Source of the DNA: Schlegelella aquatica
GTDB lineage: Bacteria; Pseudomonadota; Gammaproteobacteria; Burkholderiales; Burkholderiaceae_C
Length of the DNA: 64,000 nucleotides
Assembly: GCF_026013905.1 (NCBI RefSeq)
Contig: NZ_CP110257.1
Coordinates: 1,364,001-1,428,000, forward strand
Direction of reading: 5' to 3'
In this document: piece by piece, positions 18,742 to 64,000 of the stretch
Layout of the letters: each line of letters opens with the position of its first letter
How positions within the stretch are numbered: the stretch's first letter is position 1
Made by a program: the position numbers and the translations under genes
The notes under the pieces: model-generated
Database searches by the model: none
What the model was told of the DNA's origin: nothing
Seen by the model: the letters and a program-made list of their open reading frames with translations, nothing else

Positions 18742-18826
18742 GCCAGGTGGTGTCGGCCGACCCACCTCCAGCGCACCTTCCGCGCTTTTCGCGCGCACAC
18801 ATGGGTCCGAGAGGAATCAGCCTCAG

Positions 18827-20371: not shown

Positions 20372-20387
20372 GGCAGAGGGGTCGTTC

Positions 20388-21320: not shown

Positions 21321-21378
21321 GCAGAGCCGGCGCTCGCCGGCACGTTCCCGTGGCCGGCACCCTGCCCCGGGGCGCACG

Positions 21379-23040: not shown

Positions 23041-23055
23041 GCACTGCGCGCATCC

Positions 23056-26762: not shown

Positions 26763-26773
26763 AAGGAGCCGCC

Positions 26774-37255: not shown

Positions 37256-37265
37256 GGAGCAACGA

Positions 37266-42833: not shown

Positions 42834-43613
42834 TCAGTCCGCCCAGCCTTGCCAGCGGTAATAGGCAAGACCGAGCACTTCATGCAGCGCTTGGGCAAGG
42901 AGCTGGGGCCCACCGTTGTTCGGCAGCCAGGCACGCCATGTCGGCCGCTCGATCTGCCGGAAGCCGCACGGCCAGGGGCGCACGTCCCAATCCAAGCTTC
43001 GGGCGACCGCGAGCGAGCGGGGCATGTGCAGCGCACTCGTCACCAGCCAGATCGGGCCCTCGTGATCGCCGAGGCGCTTTCTTGCCCAGAGGAGGTCTTC
43101 GTGCGTGCGCGAGGTGTCGGGGCTCAGCACGATGGCCTGCTCCGGTACTCCCATCGAGACCGCCACGGCTGCCATGCGTGCGGCGAACGACTCCGCGGGC
43201 GGGATGCCCTTCGGCCCTCCGGCCATCAACAGCCGCCCGCCGGTGCGTCGCCACAGCGACACCGCGGCATGCACCCGCTCCCATCCGTCGGCGTCCAGGC
43301 GGGTGTGCGGGGCGGCTGCCGTACCGGCGATCTCCCCGCTCGCCAGCACCACGATCACGCTGCGCGGGTCGGCCTGCGGGCGGTGCGCGGAGCGCGGGAC
43401 GGCGTTCTCGAGCTGGCGCACGACCAGGTTGCCCAGCGCGGGGGTGCTGAGAATCCAGCTCCATGCGGCAAGCGCGAGCAGCAGATGGCGCCACCGGTAC
43501 AAGCGGCTTCCATCGGCCAGGCGGGATCCGATGGCCAGGATCACGAGGATCAGGACGAGATACACCGCCCCCGGCAAGGGGATCTCCGAGGCGGAGGTGA
43601 AGAACAGGCGCAC
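42834..43613 (-). CDS. YdcF/ElyC/SanA family (DUF218) membrane protein
   Basis: A 259-residue protein with two N-terminal membrane helices (YLVLILVILAIGSRL and LLLALAAWSWIL) and a DUF218 domain: VIVVLASGE, LDADGWERVHAAVSLWRRTGGRLLMAGG, DTSRTHEDLLWAR and LVTSALHMPRSLAVARS. Relatives affect envelope and lipid-carrier homeostasis; the catalytic role is unknown. The start is a GTG at 43613 with TGAGGG upstream. It lies 9 bp after propeller paralog 3 and ends the NRPS operon. Confidence 0.85.
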   Translation of the reverse strand: MRLFFTSASEIPLPGAVYLVLILVILAIGSRLADGSRLYRWRHLLLALAAWSWILSTPALGNLVVRQLENAVPRSAHRPQADPRSVIVVLASGEIAGTAAAPHTRLDADGWERVHAAVSLWRRTGGRLLMAGGPKGIPPAESFAARMAAVAVSMGVPEQAIVLSPDTSRTHEDLLWARKRLGDHEGPIWLVTSALHMPRSLAVARSLDWDVRPWPCGFRQIERPTWRAWLPNNGGPQLLAQALHEVLGLAYYRWQGWAD

Positions 43614-43622
43614 CGTGCGCCC

Positions 43623-44993
43623 TCAGGGCCGCGGGGAGAGCGCCTGCGGCGGCACCACCAGCATGTAAGTGTCCACGTCCGTCTCGCTCGCCACCCCCCA
43701 GTTGGAGTTGAACACGACGCGGGAGAAGTCGCGGTTCACCGAGGCGTGCGGCTCCGTCCAGTACTTGGCGTACCGGCTCTGATGAAAGCCGAGGTTGACG
43801 ATGCGCGGGGAGGCTTTGAGTTCGACGGCCAGCAGCTTGCGGTGCAGCCACTGCCGACCGCCGCGGCCGCCATCGGCGTAGGTGGACACGAGCACCCAGC
43901 CGGGGCGCCGGTAGGCCTTGCCGGAGACGTGCAGCGCCGTCGCTGTGCCGTCGATGTAGGTGTCGAACAGGTCTGTCCGCTGTCCGGTGCGCAGGTTGAC
44001 CATGAACAGAGGCCCTTTGCCGGCCTGGTAGTCGATCGCCACGTAGGCGTCGTCGCCCTCGGCGGTGAGGGCGATGTCGGAGTGTTCGCTCTTGGACTGC
44101 AAGAGGCGAGGGGCGCGGAAGTCCCTCGTGAACGCGGTGGGGCCGTCGAGCCACGAGACCACCACGTGATTGCCGCTCGGGCTCATGCTGATGTGGTCCG
44201 GGCGGTCCTTGCCGTGGCGCGCCAGATCGTAGGTCGCAATGATCCGGTCTTCGACCAGATCGTAGGTGAACAGGCCGAGCCCCTTCCAATCCGGGCCGTC
44301 GACCTGGAAGGCCCAGTAGCGGCCGTCGGCCGACGGCGACCCCTCGGATCGCGTCCAGACGCTGTGCGCGCTGGGCCACACCGCCTTCACGCGAGGTCCG
44401 AGGTCCGCGACGTCGCTCGCGATGCCTGTTCTCACGTTCAGCTGGCGCAGCTTCATGCCGATGCCGTTGCTCGGCAGGAAGTAGAGAAGGTCCGGGTCGC
44501 TCGGGTGCCACTGGGGCTCGGCATCGCCCGCCAGCGGGTCGAGGGCCACGAGGTAGTCGAGCGTCTCGGCGTCGTACAGATGCCAGCGCCCGTCCTGGGC
44601 GACGACGACGAGGCGGGTGTCGTCGGCATTGAACGACTGGCGGCGCGAGTAGTCTGCGCGCGCGAAGCCGCGCGGCGGTTCACGGTCGTGCTCCGTCACG
44701 CGAAGGATGCACGTCCGGTACGCGGGATCGAGCACGGCGATGCCCTTGGCAGGCCGTTCCCCGGCAGCAGGCAACGGGGCGAGGTGCTTGCCGGTGGTGG
44801 GACGCCATTGGGCCGCTTGCTGTGGGGAACACAACTCCTTGACCTTGGGCAAGATGCTCGTCCCAGCGGGGCGGACGGCGCCGGGGCCGGGGGAGGGGTT
44901 CGCCCACCCCTGCCATGCATGCAGCAAGCCGAGCAAGAGGACGGCCGCGGCGCGGTGCTTGCCGAAGCGCCGACGCGAAGGACAGGGGATCAT
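43623..44993 (-). CDS. Exported propeller-like protein of unknown function, paralog 3
   Basis: A 456-residue protein with a signal peptide (RAAAVLLLGLLHAWQGWA) but no lipobox, so it is probably periplasmic or secreted rather than lipid-anchored. It shares the propeller family motifs with paralogs 1 and 2: EPPRGFARADYSRRQSFNAD, EPQWHPSDPDLLYFLPSNG, SEGSPSADGRYWAF, RPDHISMSPSGN, SKSEHSDIAL and WTEPHASVNRDFSRVVFNS, but is far more divergent (by eye about half the residues). The ATGA overlap with the hydrolase gene shows it belongs to the NRPS operon. Function unknown; I infer the same ligand as the EPS-side paralogs. Confidence 0.75.
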   Translation of the reverse strand: MIPCPSRRRFGKHRAAAVLLLGLLHAWQGWANPSPGPGAVRPAGTSILPKVKELCSPQQAAQWRPTTGKHLAPLPAAGERPAKGIAVLDPAYRTCILRVTEHDREPPRGFARADYSRRQSFNADDTRLVVVAQDGRWHLYDAETLDYLVALDPLAGDAEPQWHPSDPDLLYFLPSNGIGMKLRQLNVRTGIASDVADLGPRVKAVWPSAHSVWTRSEGSPSADGRYWAFQVDGPDWKGLGLFTYDLVEDRIIATYDLARHGKDRPDHISMSPSGNHVVVSWLDGPTAFTRDFRAPRLLQSKSEHSDIALTAEGDDAYVAIDYQAGKGPLFMVNLRTGQRTDLFDTYIDGTATALHVSGKAYRRPGWVLVSTYADGGRGGRQWLHRKLLAVELKASPRIVNLGFHQSRYAKYWTEPHASVNRDFSRVVFNSNWGVASETDVDTYMLVVPPQALSPRP

Positions 44994-45874
44994 GCGGCCC
45001 TCCGGCTCTGAACCTGCGTCGTCGGCACGCCCACCTGGGTCGCCCAGTGGACCACGCGGTGACAGGCTTCCTCTTGAGCGGCCAGGGGCGTGAGGGTGTG
45101 GTCGAGATGGGGCGTGTAATGGCATTCGATCCGGGCCGCCCACGGGTGGCGGCCGAACACATCCATGAACTGCCCCTGATAGTTGTAGGTGTTGAGCAAG
45201 CTGCCCGAGTAGGTCATGCAGATGCGCACGCCGCGCGCAACCAGGGCTTCCAACTGGGAGGAGAACTCCTCGACCGTCGGCACCGGCCGGCCATACGAGA
45301 TGGCGTCGCCTTGCGGCCGGCGCCTGAGGAGACCCTGGGCGGCGAGGGCCGGCAGGGTCCAGGCCTTGGCGACCAACCAGCCAACGGAGCCGAGCGGCCC
45401 ACGTCGAGCGAGGCTCTTCCAGTAGAGCAGCGCTTGCGTCTTCCAGGTCGGGTAGGCGTAGCCGTCCAGCATCCACAAGCCCTGGATGCGGTCGTCCTGC
45501 AGCGCACAGGCGAGGCCGTGGTCCGCCCCGGAACAGATGCCGACGACCGCGAAGTGGCGAAGGCCGCAGGACTGCCCGAGCTGATCCATCGCGGCCTGCA
45601 AGTCCAGGATCGATTGCTCGCGGTAGGGGAGGCCTGCGTCCGCGGCGCGGCTGTCTCCTTGCCCTGAGAGATCGAAGCGCAGGCTGGCGAATCCGGCCTC
45701 GCTCAGCCGGCGGGCCATCTTCACGTTCAGGCGGTGCGGACCGATGCGGTGGATGACGCCCGCGTTGAGCAGGACGATGCCCAGGGGCCGCATCTCGGTG
45801 TCGGGCACGGTGAGCGTGCCGCTCAGGCGGCGGTCAGGCCCGAAGGTGACGGCGATCTCGTTCACGGCAGGCAT
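44990..45874 (-). CDS. Alpha/beta hydrolase (exosortase-A-associated hydrolase 1-like)
   Basis: A 294-residue alpha/beta hydrolase. The nucleophile elbow is VVGICSGADHGL (Ser near residue 115), the oxyanion region is LLNAGVIHRIGPHRLNV, and FASLRFDLSGQGDS is typical. The catalytic His is likely in HLDHTLTPL near residue 265. It resembles hydrolases of exosortase-A loci and NRPS-associated acyl hydrolases; one role could be release of the NRPS product, as neither NRPS has a thioesterase. Overlaps the end of the next-upstream hydrolase gene and the start of paralog 3. Confidence 0.78.
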   Translation of the reverse strand: MPAVNEIAVTFGPDRRLSGTLTVPDTEMRPLGIVLLNAGVIHRIGPHRLNVKMARRLSEAGFASLRFDLSGQGDSRAADAGLPYREQSILDLQAAMDQLGQSCGLRHFAVVGICSGADHGLACALQDDRIQGLWMLDGYAYPTWKTQALLYWKSLARRGPLGSVGWLVAKAWTLPALAAQGLLRRRPQGDAISYGRPVPTVEEFSSQLEALVARGVRICMTYSGSLLNTYNYQGQFMDVFGRHPWAARIECHYTPHLDHTLTPLAAQEEACHRVVHWATQVGVPTTQVQSRRAA

Positions 45875-46665
45875 TCGACTTGGGTGGCGAGCAGGTGCAC
45901 GGCTTCATGGGGCACCAAGGCGGTGTTGAGGGCTTCCTCCGAGGTCCAATCGAAGTCGTGCTCGAGCGGGATGTGCGTGGCTTTGTGCGCCTCGGCGGCG
46001 AGGGACGCGGCGTACTCGGACGCCCCGGTGGCGCGGGGGCGGTCGATCAGCGCGAACGGCAGGTCGCGCAGATGGGCACTCTGGCGGGGAAGATCGAGTT
46101 CGCGCAGTTGTTGTCGCAGGGATCCACCGATGGCGAAGCCGAGCGCTTCGCCCGGGAAGCTCCGGTCGCGAAGGTGGGGCGGCACGATGCTGTAGCTCTC
46201 CGACAGCGCACGTACGTGGGACGAGGCGAGCTCGCGCAGGTACTGTTCACCCGAGAGGACCGGCTCCCAGAGCACGAGCCCGCGGGGCGGCGGGCTCGCC
46301 GAGCGGGATGCGAGCACCGCGAGACTCGCCCCGAGGCGGGCGCCGAGCCACAGCGTGCGCGTGCACTTGGACCGCCGCAGGAGCTCGTGCTGCGCGGCAA
46401 GCACGTCTTGCGACCAGCCCTCGAGATCGCCTTCTTCGTCACTGCCTGCGGCGTCCCCCGTGCCGTAGTAGTCGAACCTGAGCACATGGTGGCCCTTGCG
46501 GGCCAGCCGGTCGGCGAGCACCCGGTACATGCGCTGGGTGCGGACGGCCTCTTGACCGTAAGGGTTGAGCAGTAGGACGGCACTGGCTCGCGTCGCGTCG
46601 CCGAGCGCGGCGTGGTACACCCCATAGAGCTGACGCGCCGGGGGACCGAATCGGAAGGGTTGCAT
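45862..46665 (-). CDS. Alpha/beta hydrolase-like protein (exosortase-A-associated hydrolase 2-like)
   Basis: A 267-residue hydrolase-fold protein starting MQPFRFGPPARQLYGVYHAA. It has ASAVLLLNPYGQEAVRTQRMYRVLA and HHVLRFDYYGTGDAAGSDEEG. At the usual nucleophile elbow stands LWLGARLGASLAVLA, without the canonical G-x-S-x-G Ser, a feature I also recall from the exosortase-A hydrolase 2 group. It may be non-hydrolytic or use another residue. Located 49 bp after the FAAL-NRPS; start chosen at the first Met that matches the family. Confidence 0.75.
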   Translation of the reverse strand: MQPFRFGPPARQLYGVYHAALGDATRASAVLLLNPYGQEAVRTQRMYRVLADRLARKGHHVLRFDYYGTGDAAGSDEEGDLEGWSQDVLAAQHELLRRSKCTRTLWLGARLGASLAVLASRSASPPPRGLVLWEPVLSGEQYLRELASSHVRALSESYSIVPPHLRDRSFPGEALGFAIGGSLRQQLRELDLPRQSAHLRDLPFALIDRPRATGASEYAASLAAEAHKATHIPLEHDFDWTSEEALNTALVPHEAVHLLATQVECLP

Positions 46666-46714
46666 CAGAATCCGGGTGATGGTGTGCGAGATCGGGCAGC
46701 CGGACAGGCGCGCG

Positions 46715-49700
46715 TCACGACGCCTCGTGCTCCGAGACCCGCCCAGACAGTGCCTGCAGGACGCGTGCCAGCCAGGGCCTCCTGTAGGACGGCGGGCTGG
46801 GCGGCGGCGCCGGGCTGCACGCGGCTGCGATCTGAGAGAGGGATTCGAAGATGAGGCGTCGCACGGGCAGGCGCACGCCCAGGCGTGCTTCGATGTCGGA
46901 GGCGGCGCGCATGGCCAGCAGGGAGTGGCCGCCGAGGTCGAAGAAGTTGTCGGAGCAGCTGACGTGCTCGATGCCGAGCAGGCGCTGCCAGACCTCGGCG
47001 ATGGCGATCTCGGCGGCGGTGGTGGGCGGCACGAGCGAGGCGGCGGCGGTGCTGCGTGCGGCCGAAGGCGGCGCGGGCAGGGCCTTGCGGTCGATCTTGC
47101 CGTTGGGCAGCAGGGGGATGGCCTCGAGCATGACGAAGTGCTGCGGCAGCATGTACTCGGGCAGAGTGCGCCGCAGGTGCTCGCGCAACGCCGCGGGCTG
47201 AGGCGCGGGGCCGTCGGGCACCACATAGGCGAGCAGCCGCGCATCGCCGGGGTGGTCCTCGCGCAGCGCCACCACGCAGCGCGCCACACCCGGGTGCGAG
47301 GCCAGCTGGGCCTCGATCTCGCCGAGCTCGATGCGGTAGCCGCGCAGCTTGACCTGCGAGTCCAGCCGCCCCTGGTGCTCGAGCCAGCCGTCATGACGCC
47401 AGCGACCGCGGTCGCCGGTGCGGTAGAGCCGGTGGCCCGGGCGCTGCGGATCGTCGATGAAGCGCTCGGCGGTGAGCTCGGGGCGGCGCCAATAGCCCGA
47501 GGCCAACCCCAGCCCGCCGATGCAGATCTCGCCGGGCACGCCGATGGGGCAGGGCTGGCCGCGCTCGTCGAGGATGTGCACCTGCGTGTTGGCGATGGGC
47601 CGCCCGATGCTGATGCCCGAGTGCAGCGACGAGACGCGACCACAGGTGGACCACACGGTGGTCTCGGTGGGGCCGTACATGTTCCACAGCTCGCCGGTGC
47701 GCGCGAGCAACTGCTCGGCCAGATCCGCCGGCAGCGGCTCACCGCCGATGAGGGCCTTGAACGAGGCACTGCCTTGCCAGCCGGCCTCCAGCAGCATGCG
47801 CCAGGTCGAAGGCGTGGCCTGCATCACGGTGGCCTGCGAGGACAGCAGCAGCGCATGCAGGGCCTGGCCGTCCATGGCCTCGTCGCGGCTGGCCATCACG
47901 ATCTGAGCGCCCACGGCCAGGGGCAACAGCAACTCCAGCACGGCGATGTCGAACGACAGCGTGGTGACGGCCAGCAGGCGGTCCGAGGGGGCCAGGCCCG
48001 GCTCGCGCGCCATGCTGAGCAGGAAGTTGACGACCGCGCGGTGAGGCACGACCACGCCCTTGGGGCGACCGGTGGAGCCGGAGGTGTAGATCACATAGGC
48101 CGGGTCCTCGGGGCGGGCCGAACGCTCGTCGCGGGGCAGCGGCGTGCTCGGGTGGCGCTCGATGCGAGGGGTGTCGATGTCGAGCAAGACGCTGCGCTCG
48201 CGCGGCCAGGGCAGCAAGCCCGCCAGGGGCGAGGAGGTCACCAGCAGCGCGAGCTGGGCGTCGTCGGCCATGTAGGCCAGGCGCTCGGCGGGGAAGGCCG
48301 GATCGAGCGGGACATAGGCGGCGCCGCACTTGAGGATGGCCAGCTGAGCGACCAGCATGTCCAGCCCGCGCGGCAGGCACAGCCCCACCAGCGAGCCGCG
48401 CGCCGCCCCGTGCGCGCGCAGCTCGTGCGCCAGACGGTTCGACTTCTCGTCGAGATCGGCGTAGCTGACGCGCTGCTGAGCGGCGGTCACCGCGCACGCG
48501 TGCGGCCGCGCCCGTGCCTGCGTGGCCAGCAGGTCATGGACACACAGCTCCGACGGCACTTCCTGCACGGTGGCGTTCCATTGCTCCAGGCAGGCCACGT
48601 CGCTCGGCGTCATCAGCGAGATCGACGAGACGCGTCGGCGAGGATCGGCCAGCGCCTGTCGCAGCAGGAGCAAGTAGGACTCCAGCCAGCGCCCGGCTGT
48701 CTCAGGGCTGAACAGGTCGGCGGCGTACTCGATGGTGACGCGATGCGCGAACTCCGTGTCCACGTGCATCGAGAGGTCGAACTGGGCGGAACCTCGATCC
48801 ACCTCGAGGGGAGCCAGACGCAGCCCGCCCGTCAAGCGCACCTCCTCGAGCGGGGCGTTCAGCACGTTGAACAACACGCTGATGCCCAAGTCCTTGCGTG
48901 CCGATCCCTCGCCCTGGAGGCGCTCGACGAGGAAGTCGAAGGGAACGTCCTGATGATCGTAGGCGTCGAGCGCGGTCTGCCGCACGCGCTCCACCAGTTC
49001 CCCGAAAGTGGGGTCACCCTCGAGGGAACACCGCATGACCAGCGTGTTCACCAAGGTCCCTACCAGGTGCTCCGCCGCGAAATGCGTGCGGTTGGCGATC
49101 GGGGTGCCGACGGCCACGTCCTGCTGCCCGCAAATGCGCGACAGGAGCACCTTGAAGCCGGCAAGAAGCACCATGAAGGGCGTGGCCCCGTGGGCGATGC
49201 CCGTCTCTCGCACCGCGGCCAGAAGATCGGCGGGCAGCGCCGCGCTGACCTGCCGTCCCGCCGACGAGCGCCCTGCGAGCCGCGGGCGGTCCGTGGGCAG
49301 ATCGAGAGGCGTCATGCCCTGGAGCTGGTATCGCCAGTAGGCCAGTTGAGGCGCCAGCGCGGCAGGCCCGTAGGTCGCGCGCTGCCAGGCGGCATAGTCG
49401 GCATACGCGACCTCGATCGCCGGCAACGCGGGGGGCGTGTCGGCCGCAGCCCCGTACAGGGCGGCGAACTCCTTCAGGAGGATCGTTCCCGACCACTCGT
49501 CTCCGATGGCATGGTGCACGAGCCACATCATCAGGTGGTGTCGGTCGTCGAGCTTCGCCAGGAACAAGCGGTGCAGGGGCGGCGTCGACAGGTCGAACGG
49601 CACGGCGGCGTGGGCCTCGAGCCATCGTAGGGCCTTCGCCTTGCGGTCCTCACCCGCGGCGGCCGAGGAGAAGTCTTCGATCACCAACGGCAGATCCGCG

Positions 49701-52700
49701 GCGGGCGAGATCTTCTGCATGGGCTCGTCGCCTTGCAAGGCGAAGGAGGTGCGGAACGCCTCGTGGCGCTCGACCAGCGCTTGCGCACAGCGCAGCAGCG
49801 AGTCCAGGTCGAGCGGGCCCTTCAGTTCGACGGCATAGGGGATGTTGTAGGCCGTGGAGTCCGGGTCGAACTGCTGGACCAGCCACATCCGTCGCTGCGA
49901 GTAGGAGACCGGCAACGGCTGCGCGCGGTCCAGGGGTGGGCGGTGGTGCAAGTCATCCGGCAGCAGCTCGTGGGTGGCGTGGCGGGCGGCCTCGACCGCA
50001 GGGGCGAGCTCTGCGATGGTGCGTGCGGAGAAGATCGTTCGCAGGGGAAGATCCGCCTGACACACCTTGCGCAGCCGAGCGAGCACCTGCGTGGCGAGCA
50101 GCGAGTGGCCGCCCAGCGAGAAGAAGTCGTCATGCACGCCGAAGCCGCCGTGCCGCAGGACATCCCTCCAGACCTCCCAGAGCAGTTGCTCCGTGGGGCT
50201 CCTCGGGGGCACGTGTTCGAGCTCGGCATGCGCCGGGGCGGGCGAGGGCAAGGCCTTGCGGTCGAGCTTGCCGTTCGGCAAACGGGGGAGCCGAGGCACG
50301 GAGACGACCGCATTGGGGCACATGTACTCGGGCAGCAGGTCGCGCAGACGCGCGAGCACTTCGGCATCGCGGACGCGAGGGCCGACCACGTAGGCGATGA
50401 GCTTCGTCGCCGTCGTGTCGCAGGAAGCGGCCACGGCGGCATCGTCGATGCCCTCGATCGACCTCAGCGCCGCTTCCACTTCGCCGAGTTCCACCCGGTG
50501 GCCGCGCACCTTGACCTGGAAGTCCGCGCGGCCAAGGAACTCGATGACCCCGTCGTGCCGGTAGCGTGCGATGTCGCCGGTGCGATAGAGGCGTTCGCCC
50601 GGGCGGTACGGGTCCTCGATGAAGCGCTCGGCGGTGAGGTCGGGCCGGCCGAGATAGCCTCGACCCAGGCCGGCACCTCCGATGTGCAGCTCGCCCGCCA
50701 CCCGCGGGGGAACCAATCGACCGTGCCGGTCGAGGATGAGCGTCCTCGTGTTGGCGATGGGACGCCCCAGGGGAACGACCCCGGCTCGGGGGCCGTCCTC
50801 GCCGACTTCCCAGTGCGTGGCATCGTCCGAGGCCTCGCTCGGGCCATAGAAGTTGCCGATCCTGACGTCGGGCAGCAAGGCGCGGCAGCGGTGCACCAGA
50901 TCCCAGTCCAGGGCTTCTCCTCCGCAGACCAGGTGCCGCAGGGTGAGGCAGTGTTCCAGCTCGCCTTGCTCGACGAGCGCCCGCAACGCGGACGGGACCA
51001 TCTGGAGGATCGTCACCCGGTGCGTGCGGATCTGGCGGATCAGGGCGGCGGGATCGCGGTGCGAATCGGGTTCGGCGAGTACCACCGTCGCGCCGCTGAC
51101 CAGCGGCGCGAGGAACTCCCAGACCGAGGCATCGAAGCTGATCGACGTCTTCTGCAGGACGCGGTCTCCGGGGCCCAGCCGCAGCGTCTCGCGCAGCCAC
51201 AACAGATGGTTCGTCAACCCCCGGTGCGTGAGCAGGCAGGCCTTGGGGGTGCCCGTCGAGCCGGAGGTGTAGATGGCATAGGCCGCGCTGTCGGCCGGAA
51301 GCGGTGTGCGCACGCGCAGGCTCACTGCCTCGACGAGCGGCATTTCATCGACACAGAGGACTTGCACGTCCCCGCCTGCCCCGCTGAAGGCGCCGCGCAG
51401 GTGGCTTTGCGTGAGCACGCATTTCACCTTGCTGTCGGCGAGCATGAACGAGATGCGAGGGCCCGGGTAGTCGGGGTCGATCGGCAAGAAGGCGGCTGCG
51501 GCCTTGAGCACGGCCATCATGGCGATCGGCAGCTCCAGCGAGCGGTGCATCGCGATCGCGACGAGGTCACCGGGGGCGACACCGCGCTCGCGCAGGAGCG
51601 CCGCGAGCTGATCCGCACGCCGATGCAAGGCGTCGTAGCTCAGCTGCGACTGCCCGAACGTCACGGCCGGCGCGTCCGGGGCCTCGGCGGCCACCTGGTC
51701 GAACAGCTCGTGTGCCGCAAGCTCGAGAGGATAGTGCCGATGCGTGTCGTTCCAGGTGTGGAGAAGCCGCTCGAGCTCCGGTTCGCTGAGCAGCGGAAGG
51801 CGCGACAGCGGCGTCTCGGGGGCCGCGAGGGCGGCCTCGAGGAGGGTGAGGTGGTGCCGGGCCAGGTTCTGGATGGTCTCTGCGTCGAACAGGTCGGCGC
51901 TGTACTCGTACTCGAGCTCGACGCCACCGTGCGTCTGCGTGCACTCGACCCAAAGGTCGGTCTTCGCGATCCCGAGCGGGAAGGGGCGGACCTCGGCACA
52001 GGCCCCGGGCAGGCGCACGTCCGACACGCCGCGTTGACGCCACGCGAAGACCACGGGGTAGAGCGGGTTGCGGCCCGGCACGCGGGGCAGGCCGAGCGCG
52101 GCCACCAGGTGATCGGAGGGATACGCCTGATGCGCATGGGCCTCGACGGTGGTCTCGCTGACTCTGCGCACCAGGGTCTCGAAGGACGGATCGCCTTCGA
52201 GCGTGGTGCGCAGGACCAGGGTGTTGGAGAAGTAGCCGACCGTCTTCTCGTGCCGGGCATGCAATCGACACGCGCTGGGAGAACCGACGGTGATGTCGTC
52301 CTGGCCGGTGTAGCGGGCAAGCAGCGCCTTGAAGGCGGCCAGCATGACTACGTACGGTGTCGTCTGCAGGCGCAGGGACAGCTGCCGGACACGCTCGAGC
52401 AGCGGGGCCGGGAGCCGCAGCCCCTGATGCTCGGCGCGGAAGCTGGCGTGCGCCGGCGGCGGACGGTCGGGGAGGAGCTCCACAGGCTCGAAGGCGGCGA
52501 GCTTGCCGCGCCAGTACTCGAGCAGCCGCTCGCCCTCAGGGCCGGTGAGCAGGCGGTGGTGTTCCAACGCGTACTCGTCATAGCCCGTGGCCGGAGGGAG
52601 GTCCAAGCGCACGCCGGTTCGCTCCTGCTCGCTGAATTCCGCCAGCTCGCAGAGCAACAGATCGAAGGACCAGCCGTCGAACACCAGGTGGTGGGTCACG

Positions 52701-55430: not shown

Positions 55431-58400
55431 TCATCCCAGTCTTTGCTTCACGTCCTCCTGCGTGCGGTCGCCGGCAACGGCCGTGAGCACGCGCTTGAGC
55501 CAGCCCGCTCGCGAGGCGGGGCTGGCTTCGGTGACTTGCGGGGGGCGTTCCTCTTCGATCTCACACGCGGCTGCGATCTGAGAGAGGGATTCGAAGATGA
55601 GGCGTCGCACGGGCAGGCGCACGCCGAGGCGTGCTTCGATGTCGGAGGCGGCGCGCATGGCCAGCAGGGAGTGGCCGCCGAGGTCGAAGAAGTTGTCGGA
55701 GCAGCTGACGTGCTCGATGCCGAGCAGGCGCTGCCAGACCTCGGCGATGGCGATCTCGGCGGCGGTGGTGGGCGGCACGAGCGAGGCGGCGGCGGTGCTG
55801 CGTGCGGCCGAAGGCGGCGCGGGCAGGGCCTTGCGGTCGATCTTGCCGTTGGGCAGCAGCGGGATGGCCTCGAGCATGACGAAGTGCTGCGGCAGCATGT
55901 ACTCGGGCAGAGTGCGCCGCAGGTGCTCGCGCAACGCCGCGGGCTGAGGCGCGGGGCCGTCGGGCACCACATAGGCGAGCAGCCGCGCATCGCCGGGGTG
56001 GTCCTCGCGCAGCGCCACCACGCAGCGCGCCACACCCGGGTGCGAGGCCAGCTGGGCCTCGATCTCGCCGAGCTCGATGCGGTAGCCGCGCAGCTTGACC
56101 TGCGAGTCCAGCCGCCCCTGGTGCTCGAGCCAGCCGTCATGACGCCAGCGGCCGCGGTCGCCGGTGCGGTAGAGCCGGTGGCCCGGGCGCTGCGGATCGT
56201 CGATGAAGCGCTCGGCGGTGAGCTCGGGGCGGCGCCAATAGCCCGAGGCCAACCCCAGCCCGCCGATGCAGATCTCGCCGGGCACGCCGATGGGGCAGGG
56301 CTGGCCGCGCTCGTCGAGGATGTGCACCTGCGTGTTGGCGATGGGCCGCCCGATGCTGATGCCCGAGTGCAGCGACGAGACGCGACCACAGGTGGACCAC
56401 ACGGTGGTCTCGGTGGGGCCGTACATGTTCCACAGCTCGCCGGTGCGCGCGAGCAACTGCTCGGCCAGATCCGCCGGCAGCGGCTCACCGCCGATGAGGG
56501 CCTTGAACGAGGCACTGCCTTGCCAGCCGGCCTCCAGCAGCATGCGCCAGGTCGAAGGCGTGGCCTGCATCACGGTGGCCTGCGAGGACAGCAGCAGCGC
56601 ATGCAGGGCCTGGCCGTCCATGGCCTCGTCGCGGCTGGCCATCACGATCTGAGCGCCCACGGCCAGGGGCAACAGCAACTCCAGCACGGCGATGTCGAAC
56701 GACAGCGTGGTGACGGCCAGCAGGCGGTCCGAGGGGGCCAGGCCCGGCTCGCGCGCCATGCTGAGCAGGAAGTTGACGACCGCGCGGTGAGGCACGACCA
56801 CGCCCTTGGGGCGACCGGTGGAGCCGGAGGTGTAGATCACATAGGCCGGGTCCTCGGGGCGGGCCGAACGCTCGTCGCGGGGCAGCGGCGTGCTCGGGTG
56901 GCGCTCGATGCGAGGGGTGTCGATGTCGAGCAAGACGCTGCGCTCGCGCGGCCAGGGCAGCAAGCCCGCCAGGGGCGAGGAGGTCACCAGCAGCGCGAGC
57001 TGGGCGTCGTCGGCCATGTAGGCCAGGCGCTCGGCGGGGAAGGCCGGATCGAGCGGGACATAGGCGGCGCCGCACTTGAGGATGGCCAGCTGAGCGACCA
57101 GCATGTCCAGCCCGCGCGGCAGGCACAGCCCCACCAGCGAGCCACGCGCCGCCCCGTGCACGCGCAGCTCGTGCGCCAGACGGTTCGACTTCTCGTCGAG
57201 ATCGGCGTAGGAGCAGCGCTCGGTCGAAGTCGCGACCGCGCACGACCGTGCGTGGCGTTCGAACGAGGGGGCGAGCAGCGTGGGCACGCACGCCTGCTTC
57301 ACGTCCTGGGCGGTGTCGTTCCAAGCGCTCAGGCGATCTTGTTCTGCCTGCGCCAGCATGCGGTAGCGGCTCGAGGCCGTTTCGGCCTCAGCGGTCACCT
57401 GCTCCAGCACGTCCTGGAACCGGAGGGCAAAGGACACGACCGTCTCGTGGCAGAAGAGGTCCGCGGCGTAGGTGTAGGCGCACTCGATGCCCGCCGGTGT
57501 TTCCACGCACCAGAGGCTGAAGTCCTCCGAGGCCCCATGCAGTCCGATGCCGGTGCGTTGGTGCGTCAGCCTTCCCCACTGCAACCGACGCTCTCGCGCG
57601 TCCTGGAAAGAGAACATCGACTGATAGAGCACCGGCCGGCTCGGGTCGCGAGGCACGTTGAGCTCGCGTACCAGATGCTCGAACGGCACCTCCGGGTATG
57701 CGAATGCCTGTGTCACGACGTCGTGCACGTCGTCGAGCCATCGGCTGAACGAAAGGTCCGGGCCGGGGCGAAGGCGCAAGGGAAGAGCGTTGACGAAGAA
57801 CCCCATGACCGGTTCGAGCTCAGGCTGCTCGCGGCCTCGTACCGGCGTGCCCACCACGAAGTCCGACTGCCCCGTCATACGGTGCAACAGCAGTCCGTAA
57901 GCGGCCAACAGCACGACATACAGCGTCTTGCCCCGTTGCCGTGCGAATGCGTGGAGACGATCTGCCAGCTCGCGAGGAAGCAGGTGTCGGTGCGAAGCGC
58001 CACGGCCCGACATCGAGGGCGGCCGCGGGCGGTCCAATGGAAGCTCCAGCGGCTGCGGCAGAGGAGTGAGCTGGGACTTCCAGTAGTGGGTCTGCCGGGC
58101 CAGTTCGGCGCCCTGCATCCACTGGCGCTGCCAAACCGAATAGTCCCCGTATGTCACGGAAAGCGGGGGCAGGCGAGGCTCTCTGCCCTCGCAGTGTGCG
58201 GCATAGAGTTCGGACAACTCACGGTACAGCAGGTCGAACGACCATCCGTCCCAGATCGCATGGTGTGCCATGAAGAACAGCACGTGTTCCTGCTCGTCCA
58301 TGCAGAAGAGCTGCAGACGGAAAAGTGGTGGCTGTTCCAGAGAAATCGGCGTCTTCGCCATGCGGGCGATGTGTTCCTGAAGCACTTGCTCGCGCTCTTG

Positions 58401-61400
58401 CGCAGGAACTCCGGACAGGTCCACCAACGGGAGGCGGACCTCGAGGGACGGAAGAACCCTTTGCACCGCCCCTGCGTCTGGCGTGCGCTCGAAGTAGGTG
58501 CGAAGTGCGCTTTGGCGCTGCACGAGCCCGGCGAGCGCCGCCTCGAGGGCAGCCAGGTTCATCGGGCCCTTCAACCGATGCGCGGAGGGCAGGTTGTTCA
58601 CGGGCGTGCCGGGATTCAGCTGCTCGAGGAACCACAGCCTCTGCTGCATCAACGACATCGGGGCGGTGTCCTGATCTGCACGGGGCAGGACGGGCGGCAA
58701 CTGCCTCGCCTGGTCCGACGGAGCCGATCGCAGCGCAGTGGCCAGCGCATGGGGCGTGGGGGACTGAAAGATCGTCTTCAAAAGGACTCGTTGACCCGCG
58801 AGCCGGCCGACCCTGGAAGCCAGACGGGCCGCGAGCAGAGAGTGGCCTCCCAGCTCGAAGAAGTGGTCATCCGGCTCCAGCGGTGCGCGGCCCAGAATCT
58901 CTCCCATGATCTGCCCGATCTGCTCTGCGGTGACGGCCTGCTCGGCGGTCGCAGCCGCAGGTTGCGCGCGGGCCGGCGCAGCGGCCGGCAATCCGCCAGC
59001 CGGTGCCGGCAGCGCCTTGCGATCGATCTTGCCGTTCGGCAGCAACGGAAACCGATCCAGCAAGACGAACTGAGCCGGCACCATGTAGTCGGGAAGGTTC
59101 GTCTTCAGCGCCGCCCGAATGCCCGCCTCGTCGAAGGAAGTGTGATCCCCCGGGATGACGTAGGCGACGAGCCGCAGACCCCCGGATGCGTCTTCCTGCA
59201 CGCTCACGACGGCGCGGCGAACGTTGTCCAGGGCTTCCAGCTGTGCCTCGATCTCGCCGAGCTCGATGCGGTAGCCGCGAATCTTCACCTGATGGTCGAG
59301 GCGACCGAGATGCTCGATCGTTCCATCTTCCAGCCAGCGGCCGAGATCGCCCGTGCGGTACAGGCGAGCGCCGGGGCGGGTCGCGAAGGGGTCGGGAACG
59401 AACTTCTCGGCGGTGAGTTCCGGCCGGTTGAAGTAGCCGGTGGCGACGCCGGCACCGCCAATGCAGATCTCGCCTTCCTCACCCACGGCACAAGGGCGCA
59501 TTCCTGCATCCACCACCCACACTTGGGTGTTGTCGATGGGCCGGCCCACGGTGATCTTGCGGCTCGCGTCGGTGATGCGGGCGACGGTCGACCAGACGGT
59601 CGTCTCCGTCGGGCCGTACATGTTCCACAGCTCCACACCCTGGCGCAGCAGGCGCTCGGCGAGCGAGGCAGGCAAAGGCTCACCGCCGCACAGCGCCTTG
59701 AACCCCGCGGGAGCCCGCCAGCCCGTGTCCAGCAGGAGGTGCCAGGTGGTGGGAGTGGCTTGCATCACGGTGATGCGGTGCTTCTGGATCAACTGTGCGA
59801 GCGCCTCGCCGTCCATGGCTTCCTCGCGTTCGGCCAAGACGACCTGTGCGCCCACCACCAAGGGCAGCAGCAACTCGAGCACCGCGATGTCGAAGGACAG
59901 CGTGGTCACCGCAAGGAGCCTGTCGTCACGGCCCAGACCTGGCTCACGCTTCATGCTCGCAAGGAAATTGCACACTGCACGCCTGGGCACGACCACCCCC
60001 TTGGGCCTTCCCGTGGACCCGGAGGTGTAGATCACGTAGGCCGTGGCGTCGCCCGCATGCTCACGAGGTGGAGCCACCGGCGAGAGCGACGCCTGCGCGA
60101 GCGCGTCCGCGTCATCGTCGATGCGAAGCTGCAGTTCGCGCGGAACTCCGCACGCGTGGGCGTGTACCCGCTCGGTCACCACGACCTTCACGCCCGCGTC
60201 CTCGGCCATGTAGAGGAGGCGGTCGCGTGGAAAGCCCGGGTCGAGCGGCACGTAAGCCGCGCCGGTCTTCAACACGCCGAGCAGTGCGGCAACGAGGTCC
60301 GTCCCCCGTCCAAGGCACAGACCCACACGAGTGCCGGGGCCCGCGCCGTGGGCGAGCAGCGCGTGGGCGAAGCGGTTGGATCGGGCCTCCAGCTCCCCAT
60401 AGGTCATCTCGACCCGCCCGGCGATCAGAGCGACGGCTTGCGGTGCGAGACGTACCTGGTCGCGAAACCATTGCTCCACGCTCGCGTCGTGGGACAACTC
60501 CGCGTCGGTCGCGTTCCACGCGACCAGCCTCGGGTCCACGGCAGGGCAGCCCGGCCCGCGCAGCCGGCCGGAATCCGGCTCCCCCGCGGCCGCGTCGTCT
60601 CGCGCCCGAGCCAGCGGCTCATCCGGCGAACTGGCGAGTGCCTCGCATGAGGCCACCAACGACTCGACGAGGAACCTCGCCCGCTCGGGGCTGAAATGCT
60701 CCGTGCTGTAATGGAGATCGAGCGTGATGACGCCGTCGTTCTCGTAGAAATTGAAGAACAACTCGCTCAGGATTCCCGCTTTGCGCCCCTCCTGCATCCT
60801 TGCTTTCAACGGGGCAAAGGCGGTCAGATCGACCTTCGGGTTGAGGTTGAAGAAGATGCCCGTCAGAGCAGGGCGGTCTCCGGGGCTGGCATGTCCCAGC
60901 GCGCGGGCGATCGATCCTTGCGTCACGAGGGGATGGTGCAGTGCATCGATCAGCCGGGAGCGCACCCGGCCGAGCAGCGACGCGCCCGTGTCGGTCTCCT
61001 CGCAGTCGATCAGCAGCGGCAGGTCGAGCACACCGTCCGCCATGAGCGGTCCATGGCGGTCCAGGGACTGACTGGCATAGGGGATGCAAACCACGAAGCG
61101 GTTTTGACCGCCCACGCGGTACAACATCGCACTGAGGGCTGCGAGCAGCACCTGGAACGCCGTGGCTGCGTGTTGTCGTGCCCGCTCGCGCAGCCGTCGG
61201 CACAGCGAAGCTTCGAGGCGGGTATGCAGCGTGTTCGCTTCGTAACGCCGGGGCGACGGCGGCGTGCGATCGCCCAGGGCCAGCGGCGGCGGTGCCTCTT
61301 CGAGGCAGCGCAACCAGAACGCACGACACGCCTCGCCTTCGGGGCCGTTCATGCGTGCATCCTCTTTCCTGGCGAACTCGATCGGCGATTCCGCGGCAGG

Positions 61401-63989
61401 AAGCTGCAGTGCCTCGCCGCGGACTCGCGCCCGGTAGGCGGCGCCCAGCTCCGCAACGAAAACGCTCGAGGCCCAGCCATCGAGGATGAGGTGACTGGTC
61501 ACGAGATGGACGGCCGCCCGCGTGTCGCCGAGCCGCAGCAAGGTGATCGCCGCCAGCGGGGGCTGATCGAGCGGAAAGGCGCGTCGGCTCGCCTCGGTGC
61601 AGAACCGATCCAGGGCTGCGTCAGGATCCGGCTGCCCCCGCAGATCGACTTCGGTCACCGACATGGCCCGGGGCGGCGAGAGTCTCTGCCGAGGTTCGTC
61701 CAGGTCGAAGCTGAGACGGAAGGCCTCGTGGCGCTCCAGCACGTCGGCGACGGCCGCCTTGAGGGCGGGGAGGTCGACGTCTCCCGACAACTCGATGTAG
61801 AAGGACTCGTTGAGCGCACGGCGCACGTGGGGATCGAAACCGGCTGCCAGCCAACGTTCGGTCTGCCCCGGCGTCAGCGGCCCTTCCAGGAGGGACCCGC
61901 GCCCATCGTCGTGGGGGCCGGCGGGGGGCGGGAAGCCCGCGCGCGGCTGGATGAAGCCGAGCGCCATCAGTTCGTCGAGCGACTGCGTGAAGACGGTGAA
62001 GATGCGGTCCAGCTCCTCGTCGCCCATCGCCTCCGTCACGAAGTGCCCGAACTGCTCGTACAGGTGTAGGCCGTGATGGCGCACCAGGTAGTAGAACAGG
62101 CTGACGTACTTCTGGCCCTCGTCCCAGGAAAGCCGCCACAGGGAGGCGCAATGGACGGCCTTGCACGGAGCCCCTCGAACGGCGAACGCCGTGTTGAGAC
62201 GATCGACGAGGCGCTGTGTCCGATCGTTCAGGCGGCGATAGATCGAGCGGCCCTCCTCCTTGAGGCGCAGCAGCGTGGCCCGTGCCGCGGCGAGCGCGAG
62301 CGGGTGGCGGACGAACGTGCCCGCGAAATAGGTCACGCCCGCTTCAGGATAGGAATCGTCTGCGTACTGCCAGTACCCGCCATCCAAGGCATCGAGCCAG
62401 CGGGCGGCACCAGCGATGGCAGCGAGGGGAAGGCCCCCGCCGATCACCTTCCCGTAGGTGCAGATGTCTGCCCGTACTCCATAGAACTCCTGCGCGCCAC
62501 CCGGCGCGACACGGAACCCGGTGACCACCTCGTCGAAGATCAGCGCGCAGCCTGCCTCGTCTGCGATGCGGCGCAACTGGTGTACGAACTCCCGGGGTTG
62601 GAGCGTGGGGCACTTGTTCTGGATCGGCTCGATCATGATCGCGGCCAGTTCGTGCCCTCGCTCGTGCAGCACCCGCAGAGATTCCTGGCTGTCGTAGTCC
62701 AGCACGAGGACGTTCTCCACCGCACTGGCAAGAATGCCGGGCGCTGCGGAAACCGAGCGAAGCTGCTTGGTGCCGCGAACGATCACCTCATCGAAGATGC
62801 CGTGGTAGGAGTTGGTGAAGATGGCGATCGTCTTGCGCCCCGTCACCGTGCGAGCGATACGCATGGCGCCCATCACGGCCTCCGACCCGGTGTTGCAGAA
62901 CGCGACGCGTTCTGCGCCGGTCAGCTCCGAGATGAGCTGGGCGACCTCAGCCGACAACGGGTGCTGAGGGCCCACCTCGATTCCGGCCTGGAGTTGGTCG
63001 ACCATCGCCTGCACGACACCGGCCGGTTGATAGCCGAGCAGGTTGGCGCCGAAGCACGACAGCAGGTCGATGTACTCGTTGCCGTCGATGTCCCAAAGCC
63101 GCGCCCCATGCGAGCGGTTGACGACGATGGGGTAGACGAGGTCTTTCCAGAGCGGATTGAACCCCGTGACCACCCGGGGATCCGCCATGAGGCGGCGGTG
63201 CTGCTGACTGAACGCCTTCGACTTCGCGGTCCTTGCGTTGTAGCGGGCAATGAAGTCTTCGAGCCACCTGCGCTGCGCAGGCGTCTCGTCGTGCCTGGCA
63301 TCCAAGGTGATGCGGGCCGCTGCCCCGAAGGGTTTCTCGATCAGGGCCGTGATCGAAGGCTGCTCGGACGATTCCTTCGGCGCGGACACCGGCTGGGCCG
63401 AAGGGGCAGGTGCGCTGCCGGGCATCGGTGCCTGTGCACGCGGCTGCGCCAGGGCCGCCGGGGCTGGCCCCTGGCCGGCCAGCAGAGCGAGCTGCTGAGA
63501 CATCAGCTGCATCTGTTGTTGGAGGAGCTGGTGTAGGGCATCGGTGCCGATGCCTGTCGGCGCTGGCGAGGGGATGGCTGCGTTCGCGTCGCCCGCAAGG
63601 CTCGGGGTCACAGCGGCTGTGCCTCTGTGGGGTGTGGGCGAGAGCAGGGGAACGGCCTCCGGGGTGTGCGGCGTCGGGCCGGGCTGGGTGGAGGGCCCGC
63701 TCGAGACCTCGGGGGGCTGAGCCGGGCTGGGCCGGAAGCGATCGGGAGGAAGTTGTCCGTCGAGGAACACCGCCAGCTTGGGGACGGTGTCGAGGTCTTC
63801 CATCAATCGGCGCATCCGCAGCTTGACGCCGAACACTCGCTCGATCTCGAGTGTGGCCTGGGTGAGCGACAGAGAGTCGAGCCCTTGATCCAGGAAGCAG
63901 GCGGTGCCGCCCATCTCCTCGGCGGGCACGCCCGAGACGTCGCTGAGAATGCGCTGGAGTTCCTGTTCGAGAAGAGGCAATCGGGTCAT
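55431..63989 (-). CDS. NRPS with built-in aminotransferase: ACP-AMT-C-A-PCP-C-A-PCP (5' end possibly outside the window)
   Basis: 2852 residues from the first Met, 11 bp from the window edge; no stop and no ribosome site lie between, so it may begin further upstream. ~1-80: carrier domain (GLDSLSLTQ). ~85-210: Pro/Ala/Gln-rich linker with helix LHQLLQQQMQLMSQQLALL. ~215-690: class III aminotransferase (IFDEVVTGFR; PLP lysine in TYGKVIGGGLPL near 515). ~700-1130: C domain with SHLILDGW (first His replaced). ~1170-1650: A1, code about DILQCGMVWK. ~1690-1760: PCP. ~1790-2220: C domain with HHAIWDGW. ~2240-2710: A2, DILQIGMVWK. ~2740-2810: PCP. The layout recalls McyE or mycosubtilin-type lines, in which a beta-keto acyl chain is aminated; the polyketide synthase domains that would make it are not in the window. 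Confidence 0.92.
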   Translation of the reverse strand: MTRLPLLEQELQRILSDVSGVPAEEMGGTACFLDQGLDSLSLTQATLEIERVFGVKLRMRRLMEDLDTVPKLAVFLDGQLPPDRFRPSPAQPPEVSSGPSTQPGPTPHTPEAVPLLSPTPHRGTAAVTPSLAGDANAAIPSPAPTGIGTDALHQLLQQQMQLMSQQLALLAGQGPAPAALAQPRAQAPMPGSAPAPSAQPVSAPKESSEQPSITALIEKPFGAAARITLDARHDETPAQRRWLEDFIARYNARTAKSKAFSQQHRRLMADPRVVTGFNPLWKDLVYPIVVNRSHGARLWDIDGNEYIDLLSCFGANLLGYQPAGVVQAMVDQLQAGIEVGPQHPLSAEVAQLISELTGAERVAFCNTGSEAVMGAMRIARTVTGRKTIAIFTNSYHGIFDEVIVRGTKQLRSVSAAPGILASAVENVLVLDYDSQESLRVLHERGHELAAIMIEPIQNKCPTLQPREFVHQLRRIADEAGCALIFDEVVTGFRVAPGGAQEFYGVRADICTYGKVIGGGLPLAAIAGAARWLDALDGGYWQYADDSYPEAGVTYFAGTFVRHPLALAAARATLLRLKEEGRSIYRRLNDRTQRLVDRLNTAFAVRGAPCKAVHCASLWRLSWDEGQKYVSLFYYLVRHHGLHLYEQFGHFVTEAMGDEELDRIFTVFTQSLDELMALGFIQPRAGFPPPAGPHDDGRGSLLEGPLTPGQTERWLAAGFDPHVRRALNESFYIELSGDVDLPALKAAVADVLERHEAFRLSFDLDEPRQRLSPPRAMSVTEVDLRGQPDPDAALDRFCTEASRRAFPLDQPPLAAITLLRLGDTRAAVHLVTSHLILDGWASSVFVAELGAAYRARVRGEALQLPAAESPIEFARKEDARMNGPEGEACRAFWLRCLEEAPPPLALGDRTPPSPRRYEANTLHTRLEASLCRRLRERARQHAATAFQVLLAALSAMLYRVGGQNRFVVCIPYASQSLDRHGPLMADGVLDLPLLIDCEETDTGASLLGRVRSRLIDALHHPLVTQGSIARALGHASPGDRPALTGIFFNLNPKVDLTAFAPLKARMQEGRKAGILSELFFNFYENDGVITLDLHYSTEHFSPERARFLVESLVASCEALASSPDEPLARARDDAAAGEPDSGRLRGPGCPAVDPRLVAWNATDAELSHDASVEQWFRDQVRLAPQAVALIAGRVEMTYGELEARSNRFAHALLAHGAGPGTRVGLCLGRGTDLVAALLGVLKTGAAYVPLDPGFPRDRLLYMAEDAGVKVVVTERVHAHACGVPRELQLRIDDDADALAQASLSPVAPPREHAGDATAYVIYTSGSTGRPKGVVVPRRAVCNFLASMKREPGLGRDDRLLAVTTLSFDIAVLELLLPLVVGAQVVLAEREEAMDGEALAQLIQKHRITVMQATPTTWHLLLDTGWRAPAGFKALCGGEPLPASLAERLLRQGVELWNMYGPTETTVWSTVARITDASRKITVGRPIDNTQVWVVDAGMRPCAVGEEGEICIGGAGVATGYFNRPELTAEKFVPDPFATRPGARLYRTGDLGRWLEDGTIEHLGRLDHQVKIRGYRIELGEIEAQLEALDNVRRAVVSVQEDASGGLRLVAYVIPGDHTSFDEAGIRAALKTNLPDYMVPAQFVLLDRFPLLPNGKIDRKALPAPAGGLPAAAPARAQPAAATAEQAVTAEQIGQIMGEILGRAPLEPDDHFFELGGHSLLAARLASRVGRLAGQRVLLKTIFQSPTPHALATALRSAPSDQARQLPPVLPRADQDTAPMSLMQQRLWFLEQLNPGTPVNNLPSAHRLKGPMNLAALEAALAGLVQRQSALRTYFERTPDAGAVQRVLPSLEVRLPLVDLSGVPAQEREQVLQEHIARMAKTPISLEQPPLFRLQLFCMDEQEHVLFFMAHHAIWDGWSFDLLYRELSELYAAHCEGREPRLPPLSVTYGDYSVWQRQWMQGAELARQTHYWKSQLTPLPQPLELPLDRPRPPSMSGRGASHRHLLPRELADRLHAFARQRGKTLYVVLLAAYGLLLHRMTGQSDFVVGTPVRGREQPELEPVMGFFVNALPLRLRPGPDLSFSRWLDDVHDVVTQAFAYPEVPFEHLVRELNVPRDPSRPVLYQSMFSFQDARERRLQWGRLTHQRTGIGLHGASEDFSLWCVETPAGIECAYTYAADLFCHETVVSFALRFQDVLEQVTAEAETASSRYRMLAQAEQDRLSAWNDTAQDVKQACVPTLLAPSFERHARSCAVATSTERCSYADLDEKSNRLAHELRVHGAARGSLVGLCLPRGLDMLVAQLAILKCGAAYVPLDPAFPAERLAYMADDAQLALLVTSSPLAGLLPWPRERSVLLDIDTPRIERHPSTPLPRDERSARPEDPAYVIYTSGSTGRPKGVVVPHRAVVNFLLSMAREPGLAPSDRLLAVTTLSFDIAVLELLLPLAVGAQIVMASRDEAMDGQALHALLLSSQATVMQATPSTWRMLLEAGWQGSASFKALIGGEPLPADLAEQLLARTGELWNMYGPTETTVWSTCGRVSSLHSGISIGRPIANTQVHILDERGQPCPIGVPGEICIGGLGLASGYWRRPELTAERFIDDPQRPGHRLYRTGDRGRWRHDGWLEHQGRLDSQVKLRGYRIELGEIEAQLASHPGVARCVVALREDHPGDARLLAYVVPDGPAPQPAALREHLRRTLPEYMLPQHFVMLEAIPLLPNGKIDRKALPAPPSAARSTAAASLVPPTTAAEIAIAEVWQRLLGIEHVSCSDNFFDLGGHSLLAMRAASDIEARLGVRLPVRRLIFESLSQIAAACEIEEERPPQVTEASPASRAGWLKRVLTAVAGDRTQEDVKQRLG
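55565..57210 (-). repeat. 1.65-kb A-PCP repeat, copy in the AMT-NRPS
   Basis: Second copy of the adenylation-PCP block, see 46819-48464. The two modules therefore must activate the same amino acid. Confidence 0.95.
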
Positions 63990-64000
63990 GGTCGGAGTGC

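Follow-up and report, generated by a model that had tools for sequence, protein, structure and literature searches.

Aminoacyl groups on surface sugars are already known, and in the Dlt-type D-alanylation of teichoic acids a single A domain and an MBOAT transferase furnish the polymer with a single ester-linked Ala. In this study, we analyzed a stretch of 64,000 nucleotides (hereafter, the window) from the closed 3.35-Mb genome of Schlegelella aquatica (NZ_CP110257.1, positions 1,364,001 to 1,428,000), in which a hybrid polyketide synthase-nonribosomal peptide synthetase (PKS-NRPS) gene and a second giant assembly-line gene adjoin an exopolysaccharide (EPS) operon. This locus would resemble the Dlt system in passing a carrier-bound aminoacyl group to a cell-surface polymer, but it differs in featuring a PKS-NRPS peptide and alpha/beta hydrolases. 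We put at roughly one in two the probability that the assembly line is part of the EPS locus and that its product, a short beta-amino-acid peptide likely ended by Gly, is transferred onto the polysaccharide and not released free.

A related chemistry is that of the linking sugars of the type IX secretion system (T9SS), which are reported to bear an N-seryl or N-glycyl group on an aminouronic acid or uronamide (PMC7468200). The same report describes VimE as a predicted CE4 deacetylase and places WbpS in the eps_aminotran_1 family (PMC7468200). The likeness of the Wbp/Vim pathway of Porphyromonas and Tannerella to the present locus includes the acetyl removal by this predicted deacetylase; there, one amino acid is attached, presumably by VimA (a predicted N-acetyltransferase), to a lipopolysaccharide-type glycan that serves in protein anchoring (PMC7468200). 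In the present case, by contrast, we propose that the work is done on EPS by a multimodular PKS-NRPS together with a Cys hydrolase, and 10 of the 24 genomes carrying the hybrid yielded no exosortase. By analogy, the proposed system is best read as an assembly-line version of the Wbp/Vim linking-sugar chemistry.

The XrtA/PEP-CTERM EPS loci are a further point of comparison, and the original prediction had named the two alpha/beta hydrolases (hydrolases 1 and 2), the amidotransferase, and the acyl-AMP ligases as belonging to loci of this exosortase-A type. Six EPS core proteins scored over the NCBI cut-offs, hydrolases 1 and 2 were distantly related to the corresponding families, and the A domains matched ligase_PEP_1, as they did many other A-domain models (scores summed over domains). 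The window differs from such loci in that the hydrolases fell below their cut-offs, no XrtA was found, and multimodular lines take the place of a stand-alone ligase.

As for peptide-bearing matrices, the sheaths of Leptothrix and Sphaerotilus are known for their cysteine-glycine content. The fibrils are described as an extracellular glycoconjugate that bears thiol, carboxyl, and amino groups (PMC8264430), and the passages of the sheath literature consulted contained no peptide-synthetase gene evidence. Floc formation in the related genus Aquincola depends on a large EPS cluster and on genes of the PEP-CTERM system (PMC9850573). Among the titles and opening lines of abstracts found in an open-access collection, none described a PKS-NRPS line dedicated to EPS.

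Linkage of the Hybrid to EPS Genes

The aminotransferase (AMT) segment of the hybrid, used alone as the query with no EPS bait, was matched in 24 of 399 genomes of the family, representing 10 genera (the present genome included; G001 and G613, apparently the same assembly, counted once). A chain-length/Wzc match was located within 45 kb of the hybrid in 14 of the 24 genomes and 6 of the 10 genera, and within 10 kb in 10 genomes. Three of the counted matches (G284, G477, and G546) were of the Wzc type and below the family cut-off; when only chain-length matches over the cut-off were counted, the numbers were 11 (45 kb) and 7 (10 kb) of 24. The chance expectation with one marker per genome was 0.52 (45 kb) or 0.14 (12 kb); counting matches of every score, of which there were 57 in the 24 genomes, would raise it by a factor of at most about 2.4. 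By genus, over-cut-off markers accompanied the hybrid in 4 of 10 (binomial tail 4e-5). The chain-length family TIGR03007 itself was present over cut-off in 138 of the 399 genomes and in 17 of the 24 with the hybrid. In addition, 19 of the 22 genomes that could be tested encode hydrolase 1 close to the hybrid, and all three exceptions belong to group g180; this count leaves out G632, whose neighborhood was not fetched, and G573, whose contig ends 331 bp past the AMT match, both of which are among the 24. In 20 arbitrary 20-kb windows from 12 of these genomes, each covering less sequence than was read around a hybrid, no hydrolase 1, sugar transferase, Wza, chain-length protein, kinase, propeller, KS, AMT, or C match was found, and acyl-ligase-like, amidoB-like, and deacetylase-like matches occurred in three, two, and one, respectively.

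The gene orders were also informative. In G628, a single co-directional operon encodes an outer-membrane protein, ATPase, WecB-like protein, chain-length protein, and kinase, followed by an A-KS-AT-AMT protein, a C-A-PCP-C-PCP protein, a phosphopantetheinyl transferase, hydrolase 1, a GT2 glycosyltransferase, a deacetylase, and Wzy. In four g180 genomes the hybrid lies directly behind a Wza-to-kinase EPS core, and in G284, G477, and G546 the hybrid is followed by hydrolase 1 and then by Wza (no match in G477), kinase/Wzc, and sugar transferase. The propeller also led to relatives with an assembly line of this kind: in Dokdonella, Lysobacter, and Pseudoxanthomonas it is close to EPS genes (two Pseudoxanthomonas lines having no AMT match), and in Rhizobacter it occurs at a contig end, accompanied by hydrolase 1, by propellers, and by TviB/TviC-like genes. 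This conserved linkage supports the earlier proposal that the peptide and the EPS belong to one extracellular structure, although the connection originally drawn through the propeller proteins failed (see below). In a tree of 40 AMT rows (G839 left out), a crown of 32 rows, whose support of 89/71 is not firm, includes 25 hydrolase 1 loci; of its other seven rows, five come from g180 (two of them untestable), one from Pseudoxanthomonas composti, and one from a locus cut short by a contig end.

Several observations limit this linkage. In 10 of the 24 genomes, no chain-length match lies closer than 45 kb to the hybrid. Furthermore, in a class-wide sample the AMT was matched in 10 of 369 genomes (the present one included), and among the nine others hydrolase 1 accompanied it in three and EPS-type genes in two, the remaining class-wide AMT loci being contig ends or ordinary NRPS/PKS arrangements. 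It is conceivable, albeit unlikely in our estimation, that the locus instead produces a diffusible peptide or lipopeptide (antibiotic, siderophore, or surfactant), that its proximity to EPS genes is incidental, for example through exchanged surface or competition islands, and that hydrolase 1 is a stand-alone thioesterase. In general, NRPS/PKS loci usually yield free metabolites, and such a product would also be in keeping with these 10 hybrids, with the fatty acyl-AMP ligase (FAAL) domain in the second gene, with esterases as the best models for hydrolase 1, and with the tRNA-Val gene (16275-16349) bordering the EPS operon. It would hardly account for the position of the hybrid within the EPS operon of G628 and directly behind the core in the four g180 genomes; neither would it for the lack of a thioesterase in the proteins read by Pfam (one homologue, P0182, carries one).

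Domain Organization of the Assembly-Line Proteins

The original prediction had placed the start of the hybrid gene at 63989, where the gene is in fact cut by the window edge; its reading frame stays open as far as an ATG at about 68561. The extension adds A-PCP-KS-AT ahead of the ACP, so that the full protein of 4376 aa reads A-PCP-KS-AT-ACP-AMT-C-A-PCP-C-A-PCP, a type I PKS-NRPS with KS, AT, ACP, C, A, and PCP all in one chain. Two Caldimonas relatives (P0188 and P0192) showed the same domain set and order by Pfam, and a hybrid of 4326 aa is on record for Caldimonas thermodepolymerans. No terminal thioesterase (TE) or reductase release domain was detected by Pfam in either window gene, P0192, P0188, or the two G628 proteins, and the thioesterase of P0182 appeared in its precomputed domains.

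The A-domain codes were taken from alignment columns, and their meanings (Pro, Gly, Ser, or Val-like) are those that we presume for them. The starter A domain of the window's hybrid has a Pro-like pocket, and a Ser-like code, DVWHLSLVDK, was read by regular expression, which misread some positions, in the Ideonella and Aquabacterium homologues; we know of no assignment for the code DAWQVGFDDK. Pseudoxanthomonas PXM02 and P. yeongjuensis (L093 and L095) have the same line with no AMT match and a Ser-like starter code, and this AMT-less variant would keep the beta-keto group. In G501 (L180), the region contains a second A-C-A stretch, some 10 kb downstream of hydrolase 1.

The second gene begins with a FAAL domain, which matched FAAL models below cut-off and FAAL-type PDB chains. 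A fatty-acid-started product had been predicted earlier, but the conserved hybrid starts with an amino acid, and a fatty-acyl peptide was rejected as the general product, a clear FAAL gene beside the hybrid being present in only one (G391) of the 22 other family neighborhoods fetched. G591 has a weak FAAL match (25%) 20 kb from the hybrid, and the 26-38% FAAL matches in Xanthomonadales stretches may be explained by A domains. The last A-PCP of the hybrid (55564-57210) and that at 46818-48464 of the second gene are 99.7% identical over 1647 bp, and the DNA of the two plus-strand propellers is 99.55% identical over 1112 bp; both pairs look like recent conversion or duplication within the locus.

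Hydrolases 1 and 2

Hydrolase 1 scored 72 bits against TIGR03100 (hydr1_PEP; NCBI cut-off 168), that of six relatives likewise remaining below the cut-off at 57-92 bits, and hydrolase 2 scored 93 bits against TIGR03101 (hydr2_PEP; NCBI cut-off 203). By these scores, both are relatives and not members of the two families. The nucleophile elbow of hydrolase 1 is GICSG, with Cys in the nucleophile position, and Cys114, Asp137, and His259 were invariant in 26 of 26 alignment rows and in all 120 homologues listed. In the predicted model (predicted local distance difference test score, pLDDT, 86.6), Cys114 sits between the strand 108-113 and the helix 115-126; the model and its fold matches thus agree in giving an alpha/beta hydrolase fold with Cys at the strand-turn-helix elbow. 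Esterases are its best models, which weighs for the free metabolite, and the fold search did not tell a hydrolase from a transferase. Hydrolase 1 is a candidate peptide transferase. The elbow of hydrolase 2, in contrast to Cys-bearing hydrolase 1, is GARLG without a Ser/Cys nucleophile, and the nucleophile was absent from all three copies (its own, that of G391, and that of C. mangrovi) read in the right frame among six.

Proposed Pathway

From the domain order, the linkage, the conserved residues, and the model folds, we infer the following substrates, product, attachment, and order of events. An amino acid would be loaded on the hybrid through the Pro-like pocket and extended by one polyketide (malonyl) unit, the beta-keto group would be transaminated by the AMT, and two residues, both Gly, would then be added, Ser replacing one of them in some relatives. 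Because no thioesterase is present, hydrolase 1 is proposed for off-loading: it would remove the peptide from the last carrier and deliver it to an amine of an EPS sugar. The acceptor may be a hexosamine or hexosaminuronamide, whose synthesis would involve the TviB/TviC-like and deacetylase genes of the locus together with the WbpS-like amidoB, the chemistry of TviB/TviC being that which we take to apply. TviB/TviC-like genes lie upstream of the window's hybrid and also near the hybrid in relatives. The FAAL-loaded second line would add a fatty-acyl variant through the same Gly-type last module, and the exported propellers with a PL22 fold may bind or trim the finished polymer.

As a tentative generalization, to which we give slightly less than even odds, it may be that a conserved A-KS-AT-AMT-C-A-C cassette and a Cys alpha/beta hydrolase transferase put Gly/Ser-ended beta-amino-acid peptides on EPS amino sugars, and that supposed orphan natural-product clusters are really devoted to matrix biosynthesis. 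Genome-mining pipelines would presumably annotate clusters of this kind as orphan NRPS/PKS loci that yield free small molecules. A product bonded to EPS would escape extraction from culture fluid, and in that case a group of 'cryptic' clusters of Burkholderiales and Xanthomonadales would change their meaning. The locus would then also offer a genetic handle on peptide-bearing polysaccharides for biofilm, floc, and sheath research, as well as a programmable enzyme route to peptide-decorated polymers.

Amidotransferases and Exosortase

The EPS operon encodes two amidotransferase-type proteins. AmidoB scored 644 bits against TIGR03108 (eps_aminotran_1/WbpS; cut-off 817) and possesses both MCGI and SGGIDS, whereas amidoA scored 286 bits and lacks Cys2. 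SGGTDS is kept in amidoA, and no MCG[ILFV] motif was found in the window's copy or in 14 of 14 relatives with a complete N-terminus, truncated rows and rows matching amidoB-type proteins being left out. Lacking the glutaminase Cys but retaining SGGTDS, amidoA may form amides between a carboxylate and amines other than ammonia. Xanthomonadales, Lautropia, and Rhizobacter likewise have this conserved paralogue in their EPS loci. In Lautropia (L031/L110), hydrolase 1, DUF218, a TviB-like dehydrogenase, and a sugar transferase are encoded beside amidoA, amidoB, and propellers, with no NRPS in the stretch read.

These features bear on a different mode of attachment, in which hydrolase 1 only releases the peptide and amidoA activates a uronic acid carboxylate and couples the released peptide through its own amine. 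The motifs of amidoA, set against the MCGI start of amidoB, suit this role, as do the free amine that the amino-acid-started hybrid would leave and the uronic acid predicted from the TviB/TviC-like genes. Nevertheless, amidoA also occurs in the Lautropia loci, where the stretch read showed no NRPS, and had no match in the g163 and g180 hybrid stretches; it is therefore not the general attachment enzyme, and we regard this route as quite improbable.

Transfer of the peptide by hydrolase 1 onto a sugar amine is preferred also over a role in protein anchoring, in which an exosortase would use the amine of the peptide to attach PEP-CTERM proteins to EPS, much as the seryl/glycyl linking sugar serves T9SS cargo. 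The same sugar chemistry in the T9SS case and the membership of the EPS genes in XrtA/PEP-CTERM families speak for it. The sole exosortase found in the window's genome was, however, an XrtB (347 bits, cut-off 275), its XrtA score of 170 bits being below the cut-off of 208, and it belongs to a second EPS locus (G000:C1:748001-768000) with EpsE, EpsF, and EpsI of type B. Moreover, the 10 hybrid genomes in which no exosortase was found include all five g180 and all three g163 genomes with the hybrid, among them G628 and the four with the hybrid directly behind the core. Because of these 10 genomes, the exosortase-acceptor role was excluded as a general one, and even as a local role it appears very improbable.

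Propeller Family

The exported propeller and the two propeller lipoproteins at the end of the EPS operon form one family. As predicted earlier, the operon does end with two lipoproteins (lipobox identified by eye), which are 57% identical to the minus-strand copy. The propeller model has the seven-bladed PL22 fold, its best match being oligogalacturonate lyase, with 14-18% identity and a PL22 profile alignment spanning about 106 columns near the N-terminus only. By eye, two His positions fit what we take to be the PL22 metal site (Mn-site His/Gln and catalytic His, in presumed residue numbering), and the position of the last His is not conserved, being H, Q, M, or V in family members. PDB sequence searches with propeller profiles returned nothing useful.

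The propeller had been proposed as a marker of a combined peptide-EPS system. Among 60 propeller loci with flanks of up to 10 kb (14 of them shorter than 14 kb, all counted), EPS amidotransferases were present in 30 and an NRPS condensation domain in only 11; co-occurrence thus spoke against the proposal, the family being found mostly away from NRPS genes. With 25 loci having neither of these nor hydrolase 1, the propeller was rejected as a marker of the system. The propeller loci of Myxococcus, Massilia, Acidovorax, and Cardiobacterium (L007, L013, L016, and L045) have flanks without amidotransferase, hydrolase 1, or condensation markers, and by record title no Leptothrix or Sphaerotilus locus was among the 60. 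The Caldimonas tepidiphila propeller beside an NRPS (L061:10001-11185) has lost the SEHSD and ALHVSG histidines, and this copy is probably decayed or non-catalytic.

Organization of the Locus

The features are collected in Table 1. The plus-strand EPS operon (16623-42770) and the minus-strand assembly-line operon are convergent and separated by 63 bp. The layout had been described as two giant genes followed by four others with overlaps or gaps under 50 bp; the gene order and the spacing downstream of the second giant gene were confirmed, namely, a 49-bp gap from its stop (46715) to hydrolase 2, overlaps of 13 bp between hydrolases 2 and 1 and of 4 bp between hydrolase 1 and the exported propeller, and a 9-bp gap to the DUF218/YdcF-type gene. 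The giant genes themselves are 241 bp apart (55431 to 55189). The EPS core comprises a sugar transferase (TIGR03013), Wza (TIGR03027), a chain-length protein (TIGR03007), a tyrosine kinase (TIGR03018), an outer-membrane protein (TIGR03016), and an ATPase (TIGR03015) fused to a WecB-like domain.

Table 1. Features of the window (window coordinates)
Feature	Coordinates	Strand	Remarks
EPS core, six proteins	16623..25176	+	all six over NCBI cut-off
Wzx-type flippase	25263..26762	+	matches below cut-off
deacA, polysaccharide deacetylase-type protein	26693..27562	+	matches below cut-off
Glycosyltransferases	27559..31218	+	GT2 27559-28857, GT4 28854-30047, GT4 to 31218
amidoA, asparagine-synthetase paralogue	31223..33064	+	glutaminase Cys absent, SGGTDS kept
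GT4 glycosyltransferase	33048..34223	+	
amidoB, WbpS-type amidotransferase	34279..36237	+	TIGR03108 644 bits; Cys2 (MCGI), SGGIDS
deacB, polysaccharide deacetylase-type protein	36134..37255	+	PgaB/PdaB/NodB matches below cut-off
Wzy/ligase-type polymerase	37248..38621	+	weak TIGR00947 match; position
Propeller lipoprotein 1, 446 aa, PL22-like fold	38877..40217	+	
Propeller lipoprotein 2 with InlB-type repeats	40560..42770	+	propeller family
DUF218 (YdcF/ElyC-type) envelope protein	42834..43613	-	PF02698 76 bits
Exported propeller, 456 aa	43623..44993	-	signal peptide, judged cleavable by eye
Hydrolase 1 relative, 294 aa	44990..45874	-	TIGR03100 72 bits; Abhydrolase_1 over cut-off
Hydrolase 2 relative, 267 aa	45862..46665	-	TIGR03101 93 bits
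Second assembly-line gene, 2824 aa	46715..55189	-	FAAL-ACP-C-A-PCP-C-A-PCP, no TE
Hybrid gene, 3' part	55431..64000	-	frame extends past window end to ~68561

The tRNA-Val (cac) gene at 16275-16349 (plus strand) lies directly upstream of the EPS operon and is a possible island boundary. Divergent from the hybrid gene, at window coordinate 68712-69893, is a gene for a GDSL-type hydrolase, whose family includes enzymes able to edit the acyl groups of polysaccharides; GDSL-type relatives were also found near the hybrid in G391, Rhizobacter, G266, G591, G300, G502, and G629 (groups including g164 and g7).
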